Origin: Nephrocerus scutellatus
Taxonomy: Eukaryota; Arthropoda; Insecta; Diptera; Pipunculidae
DNA: 64,000 bases
Assembly: GCA_947095585.1 (NCBI GenBank)
Contig: OX352763.1
Location: 35,637,462-35,701,461, forward strand
Reading direction: 5' to 3'
Part shown: positions 21,545 through 53,275 of the stretch, piece by piece
Position numbering within the stretch: the stretch's first letter is position 1
Layout: the number at the start of each line of letters is the position of its first letter
The notes under the pieces: generated by a model
Seen by the model: only the letters and a program-made list of their open reading frames with translations
Databases searched by the model: none
Told to the model about the DNA's origin: nothing
Made by a program: the position numbers and the translations under genes

Positions 21545-21735
21545 TATTTACTTAGAATTTAGTGCCGTATCCGAAAGGCGAATTGAGAAGCTTTCATGGA
21601 CAATTTTTACTCTCGGACGTTTGTCAGAAATTCGCGAGAGCCAGGACCGTGAAATAGATTTTCGGTCTTTCTGCAATTTGAACCTTCGCTCAGAAGTCCA
21701 ACACACTCACCACTAGAGCAACCGTGCCCATTGTT
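21545..21735 (-). mobile_element. tRNA-derived SINE (family S), minus strand
   Basis: Best tRNA-like head in the window. Read on the minus strand it begins GGGCACGGTTGCTCTAGTGG (A-box-like) and has GGTTCAAATT (B-box-like) 35-40 bases on, followed by the shared body CTCGCGAAT, GACAAACGTCCGAGAGTAA, GAAAGCTTCTCAATTCGCC. The head-to-body order identifies this as a SINE rather than a tRNA gene; no clean cloverleaf is expected. Confidence 0.72.
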
Positions 21736-21837: not shown

Positions 21838-22298
21838 AATTTTATTTTATAATTTGCGCACGCGTGGCGGCAGCCAAGTCGATACCGCAGAAGGGTTCAG
21901 GTCATATTCTAACCCAGCCGTAGCTGGTTTATCTGCAAATTCGTTGCCTTCAATTCCTTGATGACCAGGAACCCAACCGGGTTAGAAAACCTTAACATTT
22001 CGCAGGATTTTTGACGACGGTGATTCCGTGGTCATTCTTGTCGTTAAAGCACCTTGCGAGAATTGCTAGATTTTTAGTTTCCTCGATGCAAGTGCCATTC
22101 ATGGATAATGGCATTGATTTTGAGGTTCGCTTAGACGTCAGGAGACAGCACTGAACTTTGGAAGCGTTATATTGTAATTTATTGCTTTCTCCCCATTTTA
22201 TTATACTGTCCAGGTCAGAAACTTATATGAGAAGCTGAGAGTACTGTCGTAAACGAAAGAATAAATTGGATTAGAAGTTATGAAGAAGAGATCATTAT
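21838..22298 (-). pseudogene. Family A copy, 3' part (target of the compound insertion)
   Basis: Minus-strand family A sequence ending in the family's 3' terminus (CGCGTGCGCAAATTATAAAA, 21,838-21,860). Upstream it reads NDLFFITSNPIYSF, a damaged catalytic box (FVYD where FADD is expected), then NGTCIEET-like and thumb pieces. The frame is interrupted at 22,298 by the left arm of repeat B and resumes upstream at 23,839, where LSPKLFLIF is read on the opposite strand. Confidence 0.75.
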
Positions 22299-23238
22299 TA
22301 AAAAAACAACCCATAAAAATTACAATTTTTCATCTAAATTCTCTAATCGCAGAAATTGATATGGGAGCCCCTCGATCCTGGGCCATTTTTTTTTTTTTTT
22401 TTTTTATTGTAGGAGAAAATCATCGAAACAGACATTTGACATCAGATGTTAAAATTGAAAAAGCTCAGATCATTTTATTCTGAGCACTTAGAGCACGCTC
22501 ATACTCTGAGCAAATAAGAAACACGAACATTTATCTTGAGAACTCTTTGACTGCTCTGAACTAATTTATGAAAACGCCAAATGACAGAATATTGTGAAAA
22601 CTTGTTGTTCTATCTGTAAGTTGATATCGACAACAAAAAAACGACATCAATAAAAATACAATTCAGTTAATAAAAAATGTAAGTTGAAGTAAGCATAAAA
22701 CATGTATGTCTCGTTTCATTTGCTGGGTTCATTTGTGCGTGCGCTAAGATTTCTCTCTCTCTCTCCACCACCAACAAAACCATGCAGCGCAGCCGACTGC
22801 GCAGCACACACCGCACAAAGTCCATAAAGGGCGACGAATATCTGATGCCAGTACAGATATTTAAAAAATGTATAAGGGCCTTGCGGCCGAACCCGGGACC
22901 CGATCACTACCAAATTTTCGAAAAAGTATTGTTTATTGGGTATACACATGTGTGTAAAATTTGAAGAAAATCGGGTAAATTTTTTAAAGTTTTTGTTTGG
23001 GAGCCCCCCGACCCCGCAGCCCGAGGGGCCTCAAAATTGAATAGAAAGTGTTGTCTCCGGAAATACGCATGTGTGCAAAATTTCAATAAAATCGGGCCAT
23101 GGGAAGTGGGTTAAAAATTGATCGCAAGAATCCACGACAGACGACCGACCGACGACCGACCGACGACCGACCGACGACCGACCGACGACCGACCGACGAC
23201 CCACGGGCAAGTGAAGTTAATATAGAGAATTTAAAAAT
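22299..23238 (+). repeat. Repeat B, left arm of a long inverted repeat
   Basis: About 940 bp, nearly identical in reverse complement to 23,840-24,726. The outer end starts in an A run followed by ACAACCCATAAAAATTA; the inner end is GTTAATATAGAGAATTTAAAAAT. That inner end recurs at 44,620-44,640 and 48,700-48,722, so it is the family's fixed end. Inside are two diverged modules of about 130 bp carrying ACACATGTGT and AAAATCGGG. Subterminal AAATTCTCTA and TAGAGAATTT near the two ends form a short inverted pair. Open frames inside are not genes. Confidence 0.85.
23141..23200. repeat. 11-bp minisatellite ACGACCGACCG
   Basis: Five and a half perfect units of 11 bp. The right arm has only about one unit at the corresponding place (23,875-23,895), which accounts for most of the length difference between the arms. 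Confidence 0.85.
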
Positions 23239-23554
23239 AGAAATAAGTTAACAATAAAAACAGTTAGTTCTTTGATGTATGCAAAAGAAATATCAAACTT
23301 ATATTTAAGTTATTGATTCAAAATCAATATTTTTTATAAATGTAAATATATATGAATATGAATATTAATATCAATATGCATTGACTTTTTTATTTTAATT
23401 TATTATCCTGAAGATTGAAATTTTATGAAAATTCATAAATTTGTTATTATGTTGGAACACGAAAATGATTTCAAAAATATTTCAACAGTGGTCCATTTTG
23501 GTCCATTTTTGTTTTTAATTTGGTCCACAGAATTTTTTTCTAACGGCAACCCTG
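23239..23554 (+). mobile_element. hAT element 3' end, inverted relative to its gene
   Basis: The first 26 codons (23,239-23,316) read RNKLTIKTVSSLMYAKEI and end in TGA; this is the C-terminal tail expected after the LIKTKK motif of the minus-strand hAT transposase. An untranslated stretch follows, then subterminal TGGTCCA motifs (23,489-23,530), and the terminal repeat AACGGCAACCCTG ends at 23,554. The same end, in the same orientation, closes the other side of the element at 27,561. Terminal repeats of one element should face each other, so this end has been flipped. Confidence 0.85.
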
Positions 23555-23839
23555 GTTCTACTGGAGATTTGATGGCATATTTCACCGAACAGTGGAACCG
23601 TTCTTTTCATCAATTTGGTGTAAGTAAAGCTGTTGCACTCGGCGTTTGACATCGTTTGGGATCAAGCTCTTTTGTCCAAAGTGCGTGCTTATGGGGTGGA
23701 TGAAAAACTGCTTGATTGAATCAGAAGCTATCTTTTGGACCGCTTAATTCAAGTTTTCTTGGACGCTTTTAAGACTGAAATTCATCACATAAATGTTGGT
23801 GTTCCCCAGGGCTCTGTTTTGTCCCCGAAACTCTTTCTC
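23555..23839 (+). pseudogene. Family A copy, middle part (inverted)
   Basis: Begins with the 8-bp hAT target duplication GTTCTACT and continues in the family A RT frame: STGDLMAYFTEQWN, a palm-like stretch with one frameshift, and VPQGSVLSPKLFLIF at the end. The preceding RT residues (DRQ-GFRGQ) are at 27,562-27,600 on the minus strand and the following ones at 22,298 on the minus strand, so this block is inverted relative to both. Confidence 0.82.
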
Positions 23840-24726
23840 ATTTTTAAATTCTCTATATTAACTTCACTTGCCCCCGTGGGTCGTCGGTCGTCTGTCGTGG
23901 ATTCTTGCGATCAATTTTTAACCCACTTCCCATGGCCCGATTTTATTGAAATTTTGCACACATGCGTATTTCCGGAGACAACACTTTCTATTCAATTTTG
24001 AGGCCCCTCGGGCTGCGGGGTCGGGGGGCTCCCAAACAAAAACTTTAAAAAATTTACCTGATTTTCTTCAAATTTTACACACATGTGTATACCCAATAAA
24101 CAATACTTTTTCGAAAATTTGGTAGTGATCGGGTCCCGGGTTCGGCCGCAAGGCCCTTATACATTTTTTAAATATCTGTACTGGCATCAGATATTCGTCG
24201 CCCTTTATGGACTTTGTGCGGTGTGTGCTGCGCAGTCGGCTGCGCTGCATGGTTTTGTTGGTGGTGGAGAGAGAGAGAGGGAGAAATCTTAGCGCACGCA
24301 CAAATGAACCCAGCAAATGAAACGAGACATACATGTTTTATGCTTACTTCAACTTACATTTTTTATTAACTGAATTGTATTTTTATTGATGTCGTTTTTT
24401 TGTTGTCGATATCAACTTACAGATAGAACAACAAGTTTTCACAATATTCTGTCATTTGGCGTTTTCATAAATTAGTTCAGAGCAGTCAAAGAGTTCTCAA
24501 GATAAATGTTCGTGTTTCTTATTTGCTCAGAGTATGAGCGTGCTCTAAGTGCTCAGAATAAAATGATCTGAGCTTTTTCAATTTTAACATCTGATGTCAA
24601 ATGTTTGTTTCGATGATTTTCTTCTACAATAAAAAAAAATGGCCCAGGATCGAGGGGCTCCCATATCAGTTTCTGCGATTAGAGAATTTAGATGAAAAAT
24701 TTTAATTTTTATGGGTTGTTTTTTTT
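23840..24726 (-). repeat. Repeat B, right arm of the long inverted repeat
   Basis: About 890 bp, reverse-complementary to 22,299-23,238 with few visible mismatches apart from shorter poly-A/T and 11-bp minisatellite tracts. Its outer end interrupts the hAT transposase within an AAAA run, so the last six codons and the stop of the present frame (24,702-24,719) come from the repeat. Confidence 0.85.
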
Positions 24727-26786
24727 GTCTTGATAAGTGCATAATCTGAGAATTTTCTCTCGGCAGCAGCAGAGCTATGTGGCAGACTCATCAAATCAAA
24801 TACAAACTCGCATAGCTCATTAAAAACTTTTTCACCCAAACCATTAGTTATCATTTTAACTCTACTCCAAAATTCCTCTGGACTTTCACCTTGTTCTATT
24901 TTTTGACATTTTAAAAGCATCATTTGAGAATGTATGAGCTCAACATCGTACTCAGATGTATTTGAAAAACTTTTTAACAACTGAAGTGAAGGTGTTTTCG
25001 GATCAATGGCGTGTTTGGGGTGAATATAGGAGCACAAAAGCTTGAAACGCGAGTCTCTAAATTCAAATCTATTTAAAATTTGCGTTGAAAGTTCTATGTA
25101 AAAATTTAAAATATTTTTCTTAATTCTTAAAACATCTACATCGGATAAGTCTAAATTAATCATATGATCTTCTGCTTGAGATCCTATATAAATATCTTTT
25201 ATATCAATAAAATTATTAAAATCTTTTAAATTAACGTCTCCTATACAATTTAAAGATTGCATATAATCAATTTTCATAAAATGACATAAAATACCTTTGA
25301 AATTAGTTTCCATCGTTTCATATAGTATATGCAACCGAATACCTTCAGACTGGAATTCTGTATTCATTCTATTTATAGTTTTTAATATAAAAGATAGGAA
25401 ATAAAAGTATATTTTGTTATCGAGCTTATCCATTTCTTCTGCAAGTTCTTTAGATTTGATAGCATCGAACTCTAGCGTATTTGAAATAAAGTAAAGTTGC
25501 AGTGCACTCCATTGTTCCAAAATTCGATTAATGTTGTCCTCTAAACATAACCAACGCGTTGAAGAAAAAGCAAGAATTTTATGTGGCTTAAGTGCTAACG
25601 ACTCCTGGAATTCTCTAAATTCCAAAATTTTTTTCGAACTATGGGAAAAAAAGTTGTGAATATTCTTGCACAAACGTTCTATGGACATTGGAAGTGTTTT
25701 GCTAGCATGCGAAGCACAAAGATGTAAGGAATGGCAAATACATCCCATCCAAAATATATCTGCATTAATCGACTTGAATTTTGCACGTAGCCCATTTTGT
25801 TGCCCAGCCATTACACTTGCATTGTCAGTTCCTAAGCCGATTAGATTTTTAAGCGGTATGTTACATTCATTAAAGAAGTTTTTGAGTGTTTCAAAAATGT
25901 AATTTGCATCACTCTTTTCTAATTGTAAAAGTCCTAAAAACGCGTCTTTTATTTTTAACAGCTTTCGGTCAAAGAATCGAGCAACCAAAACTAGTGCCTT
26001 ACAGTTACTTATATCTGTCGTTTCATCGACTATAAGCGAAAACTTATTTTTGACGAGATTCAAAACAACATTTTCTTTCCCCTTTTGTCCTAAATACTCT
26101 GCTAGACCCACGGACTTTGTTCTTTTGCAATGGATTCCATTGGCTATTTTAGAGTCTGGACAGCACGTTTTTAATAGATCCGGCAAATAATCCATCAAGG
26201 ATAATGAAAGATTATGCAATATGCAAAACATAACCATGTTTAACTCTGCTGCTTTCACATTCTTTTTAAAATTCATTTCGTTTTTGTTGCAGAAGGATTC
26301 AATATTTAACTGTTTTTCGGCTAATCTGACATTTTTACTGTGAAGCAGGTTTTTGTTATGGCGGCTTAAGTGACCTGAGTGGTTTTGTAACGATTTATTG
26401 CAAGCCTTGCAAAATGCCACGCAATTTTTTTGAATAATCCATGGATATATTTTTATCCATTCTTCGTGAAATGCTCGCTCAGAGGTCTTTACAATTTTTC
26501 TCTTCTTAGTCGTTTTTTCCTCTGATTGTTCTTCGGAACTTGATGAACTGTACACATAATTTAAGTTGTTTAAAAATTTGATCTAAAAATAATCCTTAAA
26601 ACAATTTACATATTATCCTCAATAACCGAGGTAGAACTTCTAGGGGAAGATAAGTTGTTTTTTTTCGCCGGAGTTTTCCTAACAGCCTCTGGTTGTCTTA
26701 CAATAAATCTATTAAAATAGTATATATATATAAATATGTTAAAATATGCAACCAAAAACGAATTAAAAATTAATTTACCTATCCAT
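24702..26786 (-). CDS. hAT-superfamily transposase (ZBED type), C-terminus displaced
   Basis: DNA transposase with an intact long exon. A BED-like zinc finger (C49, C52, H66, H72, numbered from the open-frame start at 26,555) is followed by the RNase H-like fold with first acidic motif DETTD (177-181), TDNAS (243-247), CICHSLHL (272-279), STRW (332-335) and the C-terminal dimerisation stretch LMSLPHSSAAAERKFS with the likely catalytic Glu. The frame has no upstream ATG. A spliced start fits better: ATG exon 26,786-26,779, second exon 26,708-26,610, acceptor before 26,547, all GT-AG and phase-consistent, giving an N-terminus starting MDRFIVRQPE. The natural tail is replaced by six codons from repeat B; the true tail lies inverted at 23,239-23,316. 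Otherwise undamaged, so a young copy. Confidence 0.88.
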
Positions 26787-27561
26787 GATAACTATATTAA
26801 TTTAAGCATTAGTAGAACATGAACATAAACACAATGAGACCAAAAGACCACGAATTTATTGCAAGTGTAACTTGTGGACTTGTGGTACTTTTGAAATACC
26901 AAAATTTCAAGTTCTTCAAGTTGAAGGGAATCTAAAAATGGAAATAAACATACCTTTTTACTTATGGTACTAAATAATAAATTAAACGACACTTACGGTT
27001 ATTTTTCGAAAATATTCCAAACAAAAATGTTCATTAATTTTGGCTTTTTTTTTAAACGGAGAAGGAAAATATTTTTGCACAACAGAAAGCACACAAGACA
27101 AAAATATAATGCACAAACACAACACACAACGAAATATTACGATTTACGAATTACGATTTATGCGACGCCGACCGCTACTGCTACTGCTGTGTGCTGTCAT
27201 CAAAACCTTCTCTATAGAGAAGGTTTTGGCTGTCATAGTAGTCTAATCAAACGAAAAAGTGAAGAGAGGAGGAGAACAATAAAAATTACAAATGAAGGAA
27301 AAAAGAAACGTCGAAGAAATTCATGGACAAGTTCACCTGCTTTGAAATTAAAGCCGAGTAAGCACTAGCTCGTTGTCAGTTATTGCGTTTACGTAATTCT
27401 AATTCTATAATCATAAACTCCTAAAGTCTTGCAATCTTGGATTATTTATTTATTTAGTAAAAATGGACCACATTTCTGGCAAATGGACCATTGGACCATA
27501 TTTTAGTTTATCTTGTAAAATGGACCACATTTGGTCCAATTGGACCAAAACGGCAACCCTG
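24727..27561 (-). mobile_element. hAT transposon, main part
   Basis: Contains the transposase gene and about 770 bp of 5' sequence. It ends at 27,561 with AACGGCAACCCTG, preceded by clustered subterminal TGGACCA/TGGTCCA motifs (27,462-27,546), which are likely transposase binding sites. The 8 bases outside, AGTAGAAC (27,562-27,569), are the reverse complement of GTTCTACT at 23,555-23,562. Together with 23,239-23,554 the element is about 3.15 kb, a normal hAT length. Confidence 0.85.
27202..27227. repeat. 26-bp perfect palindrome
   Basis: AAAACCTTCTCTA followed directly by its reverse complement, with no spacer. Lies in the 5' non-coding part of the hAT element, about 330 bp from its end. Confidence 0.9.
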
Positions 27562-27660
27562 AGTAGAACGTTGACCACGAAATCCTTACTGCCGGTCACT
27601 GCTATCATTGCCATCTTATCGCATCGATGTTATCAGCAAATAACTGCCGACTATGTATCA
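27562..27660 (-). pseudogene. Family A copy, 5' stub next to the hAT element
   Basis: Minus-strand reading DRQ-GFRGQRST immediately outside the hAT end, interrupted by a TAA at the Tyr position. It continues across the target duplication into STGDLMAYF at 23,555. Upstream of about 27,600 homology fades. Confidence 0.7.
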
Positions 27661-41959: not shown

Positions 41960-42757
41960 GGCCTCTGACATTGAGTTGAGCCGCTCACAAAATTTCAGCC
42001 CTCTAGGTCGTGCGAAATGTGGTTAAAAAATATCTCAAAAAGCGAGAAAATGACTTGATTTCACACCATCAAACGTGCCACACGCGAAACGTAGCACGGG
42101 TCATACGTGGAATATGCTATTTTGGACTGAGACACTCACAAAATTTCAGCTCTCTAGGTCGTATGTAAGTTGGTTAAAAAGGACCTCAAAGAAGTCGAAA
42201 AAAAAAACAAATTTTTCAACCCATCCCACGCGCCATAATTGAAATATAAAAAATGCTATTTTGGACTGAGACACTCACAAAATTTTGGCTCTCTAGGTCG
42301 TGTGAAAGTTGGTTAAAAAGGACCTCAAAGAAGTCGAAAAAAAAAACAAATTTTTCAACCCATCCCACGCGCCATAATTGAAATATAAAAAATGCTATTT
42401 TGGACTGAGACACTCACAAAATTTTGGCTCTCTAGGTCGTGTGAAAGTTGGTTAAAAAGGACCTCAAAGAAGTCGAAAAAAAAAACAAATTTTTCAACCC
42501 ATCCCACGCGCCATAATTGAAATATAAAAAATGCTATTTTGGACTGAGACACTCACAAAATTTTGGCTCTCTAGGTCGTGTGAAAGTTGGTTAAAAAGGA
42601 CCTCAAAGAAGTCGAAAAAAAAACAAATTTTTCAACCCATCCCACGCGCCATAATTGAAATATAAAAAATGCTATTTTGGACTGAGACACTCACAAAATT
42701 TTGGCTCTCTAGGTCGTGTGAAAGTTGGTTAAAAAGGACCTCAAATAAGTCGAAAAG
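41960..42757. repeat. 139-bp satellite-like tandem array
   Basis: Units begin TATTTTGGACTGAGACACTC at 42,118, 42,257, 42,396, 42,535 and 42,673 (spacing 139, 139, 139, 138). The inner units are almost identical; the last is cut at about 42,757. A diverged unit lies upstream at 41,960-42,117. Each contains CTCTCTAGGTCGTGTGAAAG and a poly-A tract. Two identical minus-strand open frames of 65 codons are by-products of the repeat. Confidence 0.92.
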
Positions 42758-44399: not shown

Positions 44400-45175
44400 A
44401 ACTTCAAAAATCTGCTATTCTCGAGATAGTTTTCAAGAGGTGTTCTTCAACGTTGGCATTACCAATGCGTAAGCTTTTCCATTTTTCCTATTCTTATGTA
44501 GTCTTCCCAAAATTTAAGAAAACATAACCTTTGTCCAGCAGGAAGTGGAAGGAAGACAGGAAGTGGGTTAAAAAATGATCACAAGATCTGACCAGCCAGC
44601 CAGCCACGGGTACGCGAAGTTAATATAGAGAATTTGAAAAAAAAAAAAAAACCTGAGATCACAGAAGCCTGCCTTACCGAGGGCGCATTGATACTGTGGG
44701 AGTTGTTGAAGCCAGCAGAAGGTTAATTTTCAGAAGGTAATTTCCAGTGAGGACCCATTTTATTTGTTTGTTTGAGAAAACATAACCTTTGTCGAGCAGT
44801 TAGCAACAATCTCTTTCATCGTACCGACCTATAGCGCTAACATCCGCGCGGTTTTCTAAGGTAACGTTCTACTAGTGATCTGATGGCTTATGTTACCGTA
44901 AAGCGTTATTCAAAAGTGCATCTGGGCAATCTTCCAAACCATTGAAATACCCGTCCCTTATCGCTGGTTTACCATTGAGTCCATCCTCGGTTATACTGAC
45001 CAAAACACAGATTCCTTCTCTATCTGTAAATTAAGTATTTGGAATAAATTGCCAGGCTCTGTGTTTCTGCGTCTGTTTGTTATGCAGGCTTTTGAGACTG
45101 ATGTGCATATCTTCTCCTAACATCAAAGCTGAGCTAAAAGTGCAAATGCATTGATCTTGTGTTCATTAAAGAATT
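44400..45175 (+). pseudogene. Non-LTR RT scraps of family A and a related element
   Basis: Fingers pieces like FKRCSSTLALPMRKLFHFSYS at 44,440-44,500, a second attempt at 44,770-44,890, and a C-terminal piece IWNKLPGSVFLRLFVMQAFETDVH at 45,035-45,110, which is typical of the end of CR1/Jockey-group ORF2. Repeat B interrupts it. Nothing is open for more than about 30 codons. Confidence 0.5.
44545..44652 (+). repeat. Repeat B, fixed-end fragment
   Basis: GGAAGTGGGTTAAAAAATGATC, a CCAGCCAGCCAGCC patch and GTTAATATAGAGAATTTG followed by A13. Shares its end with 23,238 and 48,722. Confidence 0.75.
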
Positions 45176-48369: not shown

Positions 48370-48722
48370 TTCTACTTAAATATTGAAAAATAAAAACACA
48401 TGCGAAGCACTGCTACCCAACAACAAAACAACCCCAATCGTAAAGCAGCGCTGCACACAGCACACATTCATTATAGAATGGCTTAATTTGATATCGCTAT
48501 ATGGCATGGTTATTAAAAAGAAATTTGTACTGGAGCCCCCCAACCCGCGGCCCGATCAATTCTAAATTTTAATAGAAAGTGTTGTCACCGGAAATACACA
48601 TGTGTGGAAAATTGAAAAAAAAATCGGGCTTTGGGAAGTGTGATCAAAATTGAAAGCAAGATTCCACGACAAACACACAAACACACGAGCACGCAATGTT
48701 AATATAGAGAATTTAAAAATAA
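48370..48722 (+). repeat. Repeat B copy
   Basis: Contains the GGAGCCCCCCAACCCGCGGCCC module, GAAAGTGTTGTCACCGGAAATACACATGTGTG, AAAATCGGG and the fixed end GTTAATATAGAGAATTTAAAAAT. It lacks the ACGACCGACCG tract and has an ACACA patch there. Shorter at its other end than the arms at 22.3-24.7 kb. Confidence 0.8.
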
Positions 48723-49904: not shown

Positions 49905-51149
49905 ACCGCAGGGGAAGAAAAAAGACCACCCCGTTCAATGGATTTTTTTCACGAAATTAACCAAGGTATCCACCATTTAAGTATTTGCCACCTTAAGGGA
50001 TGGATACACTCTGTATATAGATAATCTTTCGACGATTACTCACTTGTTTCGTAGTACAGTTATACCTACTTATACTAAAGTACCTATACTAAAGTATAAG
50101 TAAATTCAATTTTTTTTTCAATTTCAATTTCAATTCAATTTTCAATTGATTTAATATAACTTTGCTCACACAGCACTACGCTTTAGAAAGTATTCTCCTT
50201 TCATTTCTCTGATGCGAATTAAATGTATTTAAATGGCACAAAGATGTCGTAAAAAACGTAATTAATGTTTGTCTTTGTTATTTTAGTGGGAAATTTACCA
50301 AAAAATACTTGATAAAAAATTTTGTTAATTAACAAAAAATTATCATCTTGTCGGATCTTGAGAACTGTCCTGTTCTGTTATGTGCACTGAGACAGACAGC
50401 TCTGGAAAATACACCGAAACCCAAAAATTCTCCAACGATCTGATTGACGAGTCCCTTGCATATATGTTTCATGGATAGTCGAGTCTGTTTAGTTGGGAAG
50501 CCGAGTCCTGCAATGGTTTACAAACATATAAATATCTGTACATATATTGAAAATGGCATATGTACTCGTAAATATACTCAGACAGAATCCTTTGATTCGC
50601 TATACAGAAATTAGGTACAAGTCAATTGTGAATTTGCAGGAAACCCAATTCAGCTATGCATCCAGCAATTCAGCTATCCATTCAGCAAACTCATAGAAGT
50701 AAACAATTAATTTCGAAGCATTTTCATGACCTATGTTGCCAATTTACTGCATTGTGTTTAAGTATCTTTTCAATGTATTCCCATTTCAATAATTTGAATT
50801 CCATTGGATCATCGTGCAATTGCACAAAATATTTCAACATCAATTAGTAAATTTTTTCCGCAGCAATTTGCACTCCTGCATTTATTCGGAACACTGAATA
50901 TTTATTCCTTTTTAATTAAATTCTCTGGAGAATATCAAATTTTAAAATTAGCAAAAACGCTCCTTTGTAGTTGATGAATATCTGGTGAAACAATTTACAA
51001 ATACTCCATGGTATCTTGGACAATTCCTTTGCCATTTAAATTATTAAGCAAAAAAAATCTGAAATCGCAATTCCTGCCAATGAACATAACGTTTTAAAGC
51101 TTTAAATTGAAATTTATGCAATAAAATAAAAGTGAAAAACTTAAATATC
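49905..51149 (+). other. 5' flank of the His/Asp-rich exon
   Basis: AT-rich upstream DNA with a CAATTT-rich patch (50,108-50,148) and a repeated TATACTAAAGTA-CTATACTAAAGTA at about 50,072. An A/T-rich leader precedes the ATG at 51,150. No core promoter could be fixed. Confidence 0.35.
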
Positions 51150-51652
51150 ATGAACATCGGTGGCCGCCGAAAAAACTCGTACTCATCACAACTCGTTTGT
51201 GGCATCGATGTAGTGGCCAATAATTATGTAACCCCGGATCCTCCTGATTTATCATCATTTGTGCCGGATTCTTCGATGAGAATTTTCTACAACAATGCAA
51301 GCGGTGGTAACGAATGCAGCATAATCGATTTTGACCATGATCATAATGATGGCGGCTATAATGGAACGAATATTGACCGCCACCACCACCAGCACCGACA
51401 TCGCCGACAGCAACGACGTAATGCATATCGTGCAGCGCGTGGTAAATGCAATTTTCATGCCAATAACAATGGCGCAGAAGGCGCAGGAAGTGAGAGTCCC
51501 AGTGGGGATTGTGCTCAGGATGAGGCTGACGTTGATGATGGCGATGATGATGATGATGGCGACGATGAATCAAATTGCAAGGATATTACCCAAACGTCCA
51601 GTTTCGATGATGATTGCTTTGTGCTTGAAACAAAAAGTCCTGTACGGAATGA
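51150..51652 (+). CDS. Candidate first coding exon of the cN-II-type 5'-nucleotidase
   Basis: An open exon of 167 codons plus two bases from ATG 51,150 to a GTAAGT donor at 51,653. The protein is low-complexity: a His/Arg/Gln-rich stretch (residues about 75-95), a Gly/Ser-rich stretch and an acidic run of nine Asp/Gly residues, ending FVLETKSPVRN. This kind of unstructured N-terminus is common in long isoforms of insect enzymes. The exon leaves codon phase 2 (GA) and the exon at 60,617 begins with A, completing a Glu codon and running straight into the conserved [17 protein letters not shown]. That makes it a fitting first exon across a 9 kb intron, but one in three random exons would match in phase. 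Transcript evidence is needed. Confidence 0.55.
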
Positions 51653-52115
51653 GTAAGTTACGAGTATTGCTAATGGAATGAGTTTTTTTCTGTCTTTGCT
51701 GTTCTTAAATTGTGAAAGTCGTAAAAATCTTGAACAGTGTGTGGTGTTGAGTGGGTGTGTCGGCGGTATTTTTTGCCTTTGAAACTTCAATTGAAAATGG
51801 AGGCAGAGTACATTCATGTTTTGAAATTACTCGAGCAAATATAATGCACGAAATCATTAGATTATTTAGAGTTCAGCACCTTGAAAGGTTTTCTTTGTAG
51901 TTCCCGTTGTTTCTTGATGTAAAGGCCAAAAAGAAACCATTAGTCCTTTTTCAATTTACCACAAGCAAGGAAACTATATAATAAACTAACTATATATAAA
52001 CTATATAATTAAGCGTAATGCATAATATGAGTTTTCTTTTGCTGACGGAGTTATCATCACTGGGACAAGAATTCTAGAATAAAAAATCCAAGAAAAAAAT
52101 TCGTTTGCTAAATCT
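51653..52115 (+). other. Start of the long intron
   Basis: Non-coding sequence after the donor site; nothing recognisable before the repeat array. Confidence 0.4.
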
Positions 52116-52119
52116 CAAT

Positions 52120-53275
52120 GATTACCAAATAGTTGACTGTGGTGATTGTTAACAATTGTCTGTAACGATCGTTGACTTTAATGATCATTGACTTATGTCA
52201 ACAATGGTGATCGATTGTTGACTGTAGTGATCATTGAGTGCGATAATCGTGATCGATGACTAGTAATCGTTGAGCGTTATGATCGTTGACTGCAATTTTC
52301 ATTGCTTTGTGCTAATATTTGACTGCGGTCATCGTAATCGCTGATTGTAGTGATCGTCGACTGCAATTATCATTGACTTAAAGTTATCGTTGACTATAGT
52401 GATCGTTCACTGTGGTGATAGTTGACTGCAGTGATCAAGTAATTGTGGTGATCGTTGACTGTCTTGATTGTTGGCTGATTGTTATCTGCAATGATTTTAA
52501 AATTGTATTGATCGTTTACTGTAGTTATCTGTTATTGCGGTTATTATTTACTGTGGTGACCATTAATTTGGTGATCATTGACTGTGGTAATCATTGACTG
52601 TGCTTTTGTGATCATTGAATTTGGTGATCAAAATTGTGGTGATCTTTTACTGTGGTAATCATTGACAATCGCGATTGTTGATTGCAATTATCAATGACTA
52701 GTCATGATCGTTGGAGCTACATTCTTGTCCAAATGTCGCACCCAGTAGGATACTGGAACTTATGGATAGCAGGGAATTTTTAATCGTTGACTATAGTGAT
52801 CATTACACTGGATGACATCGGCTTAAAAACGGGACCGGTGTAGAGAGGAGACCAGTACCGTAACCTGGTTTTAGAGCCAAATATGACGATATAATGATCG
52901 TTCGATGTAACGTTCGTTGACTACAATGATTGTTGAATGTGGTGATCGTGAATGTTGACTGAAATTATCGTTCATTGTAGTGATCGTTCACTGTAGTGAT
53001 CGTTTACTGGTTTACTGTGATAATCATTGACTGTGGTAATCGTTCACTGTGATGATCGTTGACTGTGGTTATCGTTGTCTTCATTGATCGTTGGCTGCAA
53101 GGATTTTTAACTTCTTATTATCGTTGACTGTTTGGTTATCGTTTACTATGTTGATCATTGATTGTGGTGATCGTTAACTTGTGGTGATCGTTAACTGTGG
53201 GAATCATTGACAGGGGTGATTGTTGACTGCAATGATCATTAAATAGTCATGATCGTTGGAGTTACATTGTTATGC
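52120..53275. repeat. Degenerate 16-bp tandem array with a higher-order duplication
   Basis: More than 1.1 kb of diverged units close to TGATCGTTGACTGTAG. Variants differ mainly at positions 5-6 (CG/CA) and 13-15. Two halves each end with the same block: AGTCATGATCGTTGGAGCTACATT at about 52,692 and AGTCATGATCGTTGGAGTTACATT at about 53,250, each followed by related GTA-TACTG sequence. A foreign stretch at 52,810-52,890, resembling part of family C, interrupts the array. Every intact unit contains a GATC site. Confidence 0.85.

Follow-up and report, generated by a model that had tools for sequence, protein, structure and literature searches.

A microinversion between opposite copies of a Helentron-like repeat has split a hAT transposon and the retroelement around it in Nephrocerus scutellatus

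The locus described here lies in a 64,000-nucleotide stretch of the genome of the pipunculid fly Nephrocerus scutellatus (GenBank assembly GCA_947095585.1, contig OX352763.1, positions 35,637,462 to 35,701,461, forward strand; hereafter the window, with position 1 at its first letter). In it, a hAT transposon is nested in the remnant of an element that we call family A, and two copies of a third element, repeat B, lie in opposite orientations, with A and hAT holding one each. The 608-base loop between these two B arms is inverted, so that each of the two host elements is cut into pieces that lie on different strands. An original prediction, made from the letters of the window, had proposed that two B insertions followed by recombination between the arms produced this arrangement. 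Here we set out what lies at the locus, compare it with other copies of the three elements in the same genome and weigh the explanations.

Read along the plus strand, the locus begins with A2 (21976..22299, minus strand), the piece of family A downstream of the B insertion, which reads NNDLFFITSNP; another copy of the family (L047) has a further match near 21550-21595. The left arm of B follows (22300..23237, minus strand), with its own 5' end, TTTTTAAATTCTC, at 23237 and its 3' end at 22300; these borders are good only to a few bases, the ends sitting in A/T runs. Within this arm is an 11-bp tandem array, CGACCGACGAC (23135..23201), whose length differs among B copies. The loop opens with the 3' end of hAT (23238..23554, plus strand, inverted relative to the hAT body), comprising the last 25 codons and the stop, the 3' untranslated part and the terminal repeat (23542..23554, plus strand). 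It continues with the hAT target duplication GTTCTACT, which is also part of A (23555..23562, plus strand), and with A1 (23563..23845, plus strand), the piece of family A that carries the reverse transcriptase and is inverted relative to both A2 and A0, the piece beyond hAT. A run of T at 23841-23845 can be assigned to A or to B, and the right arm of B accordingly spans about 23841 to 24726 (plus strand), with its 5' end near 23841 and its 3' end at 24726. A repeat search finds the inverted arms as two stretches, one of 397 nt (100% identity) and one of 369 nt (99%). The original prediction was right that near-identical inverted copies of B bound the segment, but its borders were a few bases off those given here. 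Beyond the right arm lies the hAT body (24727..27561, minus strand), with a main open frame of the DUF4371 hAT type at 24727-26582, then an upstream part and, at its end, the 5' terminal repeat (27549..27561, the repeat unit in plus orientation). The second target duplication, AGTAGAAC (27562..27569, plus strand), is inverted relative to 23555-23562 and is followed by A0 (27570..27600, minus strand), the piece of family A upstream of hAT. Homology to A is recognisable up to about 27600, and from this end point the A copy is probably 5'-truncated. A scan of the window against Rfam at gathering scores gave no match.

The reversal is seen in the ends of hAT. There are exactly two occurrences of the 13-mer AACGGCAACCCTG in the window (23542-23554 and 27549-27561); each is on the plus strand, and the reverse complement is absent. 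As predicted, both hAT ends point the same way and the 8-bp target duplication is inverted; since each of the two 8-mers has one further occurrence elsewhere in the window, the target duplications alone are weak proof. The coding sequence gives the same picture. The plus-strand piece from 23238 translates as RNKLTIKTVSSLMYAKEISNLYLSY (25 aa) followed by a stop. The hAT body itself has a DUF4371 match in Pfam (5.6e-8), and the Dimer_Tnp_hAT domain scores 20.2 bits (cut-off 21.4) when the plus-strand piece is left out and 32.2 bits once it is joined. Relatives of the hAT body (120 listed of 132 past the threshold) include proteins with PF14291 and PF05699, and the top named proteins among those listed come from flies (Drosophila takahashii, Zeugodacus and Rhagoletis). 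The matches of 74 of the 120 reach the break, the other 46 being left unscored; against 55 of these 74 the plus-strand peptide beats all 200 shuffles of itself, and against 19 at least one shuffle equals it. By these comparisons the plus-strand peptide is the C-terminus of hAT, as the original prediction had claimed for both this peptide and the terminal repeat beside it.

The element otherwise resembles the DUF4371 hAT transposons, whose relatives go by names such as zinc finger MYM-type protein 6-like and zinc finger protein 862-like: it has DUF4371, a C-terminal dimerisation region, an 8-bp target duplication and short terminal repeats. Unlike them, the window copy is split and has both ends in one orientation. 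Deprived of the end of its transposase and with its two ends facing the same way, this copy is expected to be unable to move as an ordinary hAT element does.

What the locus looked like before can be read from other copies in the same genome. We searched with the 608-base loop, and the 40 candidates scored out of 3001 from a first look gave 40 matches: only the window matched over the full length, while two loci matched solely in the hAT part and 37 solely in the A part. The two other hAT copies (L055 and L056), both on contig C3, which also contains the window, are 3105 and 2986 bp long, the shorter missing about 140 bp of the hAT body. Their terminal repeats are inverted and they are flanked by direct 8-bp duplications, GTTGAGTG and ATCACTAC. 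In both, the hAT body runs into RNKLTIKTVSS on one strand with no B between. The predicted junction, LIKTKK-RNKL, needs correction, as these B-free copies read LIKTKN-RNKL. Over the matched stretches their identity with the window copy is 98.9-100%, suggesting fairly recent hAT activity.

Family A was read in the best-scoring nine of the 37 other A matches. In all nine, A1 and A2 follow each other in line on the same strand, with no B. The site that B occupies in the window reads ATTTTT/ATTAATGATC (FLIF-INDL) in seven of the nine, while L053 and L054 deviate by a few bases after it; A0 is in place without hAT in eight and is diverged in the ninth, L046. In addition, two distant relatives of A lie inside the window, at about 18.1 and 30.4 kb. 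The hAT site is intact in both, and the B site is present with a small gap in the first and deleted in the second. Joining the window's A1 and A2 raises the match to the reverse transcriptase domain RVT_1 from 28.8 bits (1.2e-6), under the cut-off of 29.6, for the loop piece A1 alone to 33.2 bits (5.5e-8), which together with the collinear copies bears out the prediction that the flip also divided family A. We take A to be a non-LTR (long terminal repeat) retrotransposon from the motifs that we recognise in it. With uninterrupted copies of both hAT and A elsewhere in the genome, the order before the inversion is observed rather than assumed.

The original prediction went further, holding that flipping the segment back restores two reading frames. 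This is too strong, as 0.9 kb of B would be left in each element, and the A copy of the window has in-frame stops and frameshifts in any case. B remains in both elements after the flip and still interrupts each, so the flip alone restores neither frame. A phase switch that restores genes is ruled out for the same reason, and the locus has no sign of a functional switch.

Repeat B is abundant, with 3248 first-look candidates, of which 40 were scored. Its 5' border is T5 followed by AAATTCTCTATATTAAC and its 3' border is GGGTTG followed by T6-T10. Counting all ends in the fetched loci, with the arms included and without de-duplication, T5 was found at 38 of 54 5' ends and T6-T10 at 43 of 49 3' ends. 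The empty B sites in the hAT and A copies are likewise T-runs. B has subterminal inverted repeats, AAATTCTCTA behind the T5 of the 5' border and TAGAGAATTT some 37 nt before the 3' end, as well as a palindrome apparent from its letters, AAAAATTNTAATTTTT, some 16 nt before that end, whose folding energy does not surpass that of shuffled sequence (40 and 24 of 200 shuffles equal it). In the available excerpts of the published account of non-autonomous Helentrons (PMC4067079), the 3' subterminal repeat lies 38-60 bp and the palindrome 8-35 bp from the 3' end. Like the HINE and DINE-1 elements in those excerpts, B has no visible coding capacity, many copies, internal tandem repeats, subterminal inverted repeats, T-runs at its two borders, T-rich insertion sites and, by its letters, a putative palindrome close to the 3' end. 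It differs from them (PMC4067079, same excerpts) in that its subterminal repeat is about 10-11 bp long and itself non-palindromic. Judged by these structural features, B matches the published description of a non-autonomous Helentron of the HINE/DINE-1 type.

The 17-base 5' end of B occurs four times exactly in the window, against 0.61 occurrences expected with up to three mismatches, and one of 100 shuffles had at least four. Two of these occurrences belong to relatives of B at 44559-44640 and 48524-48720 (44.6 and 48.7 kb), which have the same exact 17-base 5' end and a different repeat-rich stretch behind it. Among the fetched copies, the coordinates of one locus (L042; G000:C5:42733259-42735667) indicate a B nested at a T-run in another B of opposite orientation, and further B sequence adjoins or encloses the copies at L004, L008, L010, L011 and L022. 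The 5' end also matched viral contigs at two loci, exactly over 18 bases, the match to B extending over only 20-21 bases; we took these matches as chance.

We consider it highly probable that the locus arose by four steps. A copy of the non-LTR retrotransposon A, probably 5'-truncated, would first have inserted on the minus strand, and a hAT transposon would then have entered it with an 8-bp target duplication. Two non-autonomous Helentron-like B copies would have entered T-runs about 0.6 kb apart in opposite orientations; in A the site is FLIF|INDL, and in hAT it lies shortly before the coding frame ends. Finally, the inverted B copies would have paired, non-allelic homologous recombination would have inverted the segment between them, and conversion would have homogenised their cores. 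The present layout, the undisturbed hosts elsewhere and the opposed B pair are observed, whereas we infer that the arms crossed over and underwent conversion, and how the two B insertions followed each other in time. Two marks expected of ectopic recombination are found here: a single element lies at each breakpoint, its two copies oppositely oriented, and the halves of hAT and A are swapped. A pattern resembling a mosaic of outer end and core appears in the B arms, at few informative sites.

This apparent mosaic emerged from an alignment of both arms to 42 further B stretches at 39 loci, taken from the top matches of the left arm. At the outer end, the arms differ at 4 of 131 comparable sites, and 760 of the 946 possible pairs are at most as distant. 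In the core, they differ at 1 of 690 sites, and only four of the 946 pairs, the arm pair included, are as close. When the 85 pairs with missing sites are dropped, leaving 861, the arm pair is the sole one with at least four differences in the outer end and at most one in the core. Moreover, at two outer sites the arms differ and each allele is known elsewhere (22413, G in 22 and A in 20 of the 42 copies; 22431, G in 4 and A in 38), and the tandem array is 76 nt long in one arm and 28 nt in the other. In the core, the haplotype 22668-22672, an indel block counted as a string, and the G at 23039 are shared by the two arms and absent from all 42 other copies. Single features of the block do occur elsewhere (T at 22668 in 1 of 42, the gap at 22672 in 4 of 42), and G at 22989 is shared by both arms and two of the 42. 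The arms therefore look like mosaics, two separate insertions whose cores were later made alike by exchange or conversion. Two B insertions followed by recombination of the arms stands as the best account of the locus; what does not hold is any simple version in which the arms are unrelated draws from the family, given the core variants that they share with none of the 42.

Several observations weigh against this interpretation of the arms. The outer-end argument consists of four substitutions, two involving alleles widespread in the family and two that are almost or entirely restricted to a single arm, and it is possible that the arms share a recent source copy and then mutated slightly. A ranking by Fisher's test alone does not make the arm pair extreme, 44 of the 861 pairs coming ahead of it; the eight of these listed all involve L040, whose match misses the end of B. 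Counted as exclusive single substitutions, the arms have one (23039), a number equalled by 12 other pairs. A coarser first analysis of clustering returned p = 0.06 by Fisher's test and p = 0.999 by permutation; both values took in misaligned columns of the tandem array and are superseded by the comparison of outer ends and cores. The B copies used for comparison were selected for their resemblance to the left arm, which makes them a non-random set, one that goes back to the 40 scored of the 3248 candidates, and the locus itself is known from one assembly.

The shared core variants are also what copying between the arms would leave behind if only one B had inserted, in hAT or in A, and had then been duplicated inversely, either by a staggered-break inversion or by aberrant transposition of the Helentron or of a hybrid element. 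We regard this as unlikely. The arms carry different known alleles at 22413 and 22431 and arrays of different length, both breaks would have to fall at the ends of B itself, and B occupies T-runs elsewhere in the genome, as it does at both sites here. In the available excerpts of the work on the Drosophila transposon Galileo (PMC2775673), insertion of a hybrid element is recognised as an alternative to recombination.

Another explanation is an assembly artefact, with the loop mis-oriented. Short-read assemblies can turn a loop the wrong way between near-identical inverted arms, and the locus, with its 0.9 kb arms and 0.6 kb loop, has a layout of just this kind. However, the assembly has 613 Mb in nine contigs, the contig of the window is 119.9 Mb long and the window has no N, while the whole structure, at about 2.5 kb, is shorter than a normal long read. 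With contiguity at the scale of chromosomes, an artefact is very improbable.

The inverted pair might instead be a composite element that moves as a unit. Inverted B pairs do exist elsewhere, such as the nested opposite copies at L042, but among the 40 scored loop matches the loop unit was found at this locus only, with no second locus carrying the flipped unit, and the hAT and A parts were found separately. We gave this explanation, which the prediction had named as one that would overturn it, practically no weight and rejected it. Recurrent flipping of the loop, with both orientations segregating, would be compatible with inversion through the B arms, and the near identity of the cores would make recombination repeatable; against it, a flip alone restores no frame and B is kept in both elements. 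We think such recurrence rather unlikely. One may also speculate, with little confidence, that the locus is part of a live hotspot in which abundant nested Helentron-like repeats drive frequent inversions of less than a kilobase together with conversion, leaving the loop polymorphic and producing many microinversions that inactivate transposons.

Elsewhere in the window, a tandem array with a 139-bp unit (4.6 copies, 98% matches) lies at 42114-42756, and degenerate 16-bp and 32-33-bp repeats of the ATCGTTGACTGTAGTG type occupy about 1.1 kb at 52155-53258. An open frame of 181 aa at 51111-51656, rich in D, G, H and N, has no Pfam match, and none of its 42 homolog candidates reached E <= 0.001; it may be an exon of a host gene.

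The locus is an unusually full record of a transposon-mediated microinversion, as the ancestral order is visible in the same genome and the arms carry a conversion-like mosaic. It also illustrates one route by which a hAT element may be immobilised, namely the reversal of one end. Should such pairs of B prove common, abundant non-autonomous Helentrons would generate small inversions that readily escape notice. Our literature search, in which broader hits were judged largely by their listing, found no Helentron at an inversion breakpoint.

The closest comparison is with Galileo in Drosophila, where, in the excerpts available (PMC2775673), ectopic recombination was demonstrated by copies in opposite orientation, by target duplications that had changed partners and by chimeric copies. 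In the Galileo inversion 2z3 of D. buzzatii, as at our locus, oppositely oriented copies of one transposable element lie at the breakpoints, the flanking host sequence is swapped and ectopic recombination is put forward as the cause; the 2z3 copies are chimeric or mosaic, as the B arms may be (PMC2775673, same excerpts). Relative to 2z3 as described there (PMC2775673), the inverted segment in N. scutellatus is only 0.6 kb long, the repeat is Helentron-like and lacks clear target duplications, and it is from split host transposons that the exchange is read. By this analogy, the locus would be a clean Galileo-like case at micro scale, its mechanism one that is already known.

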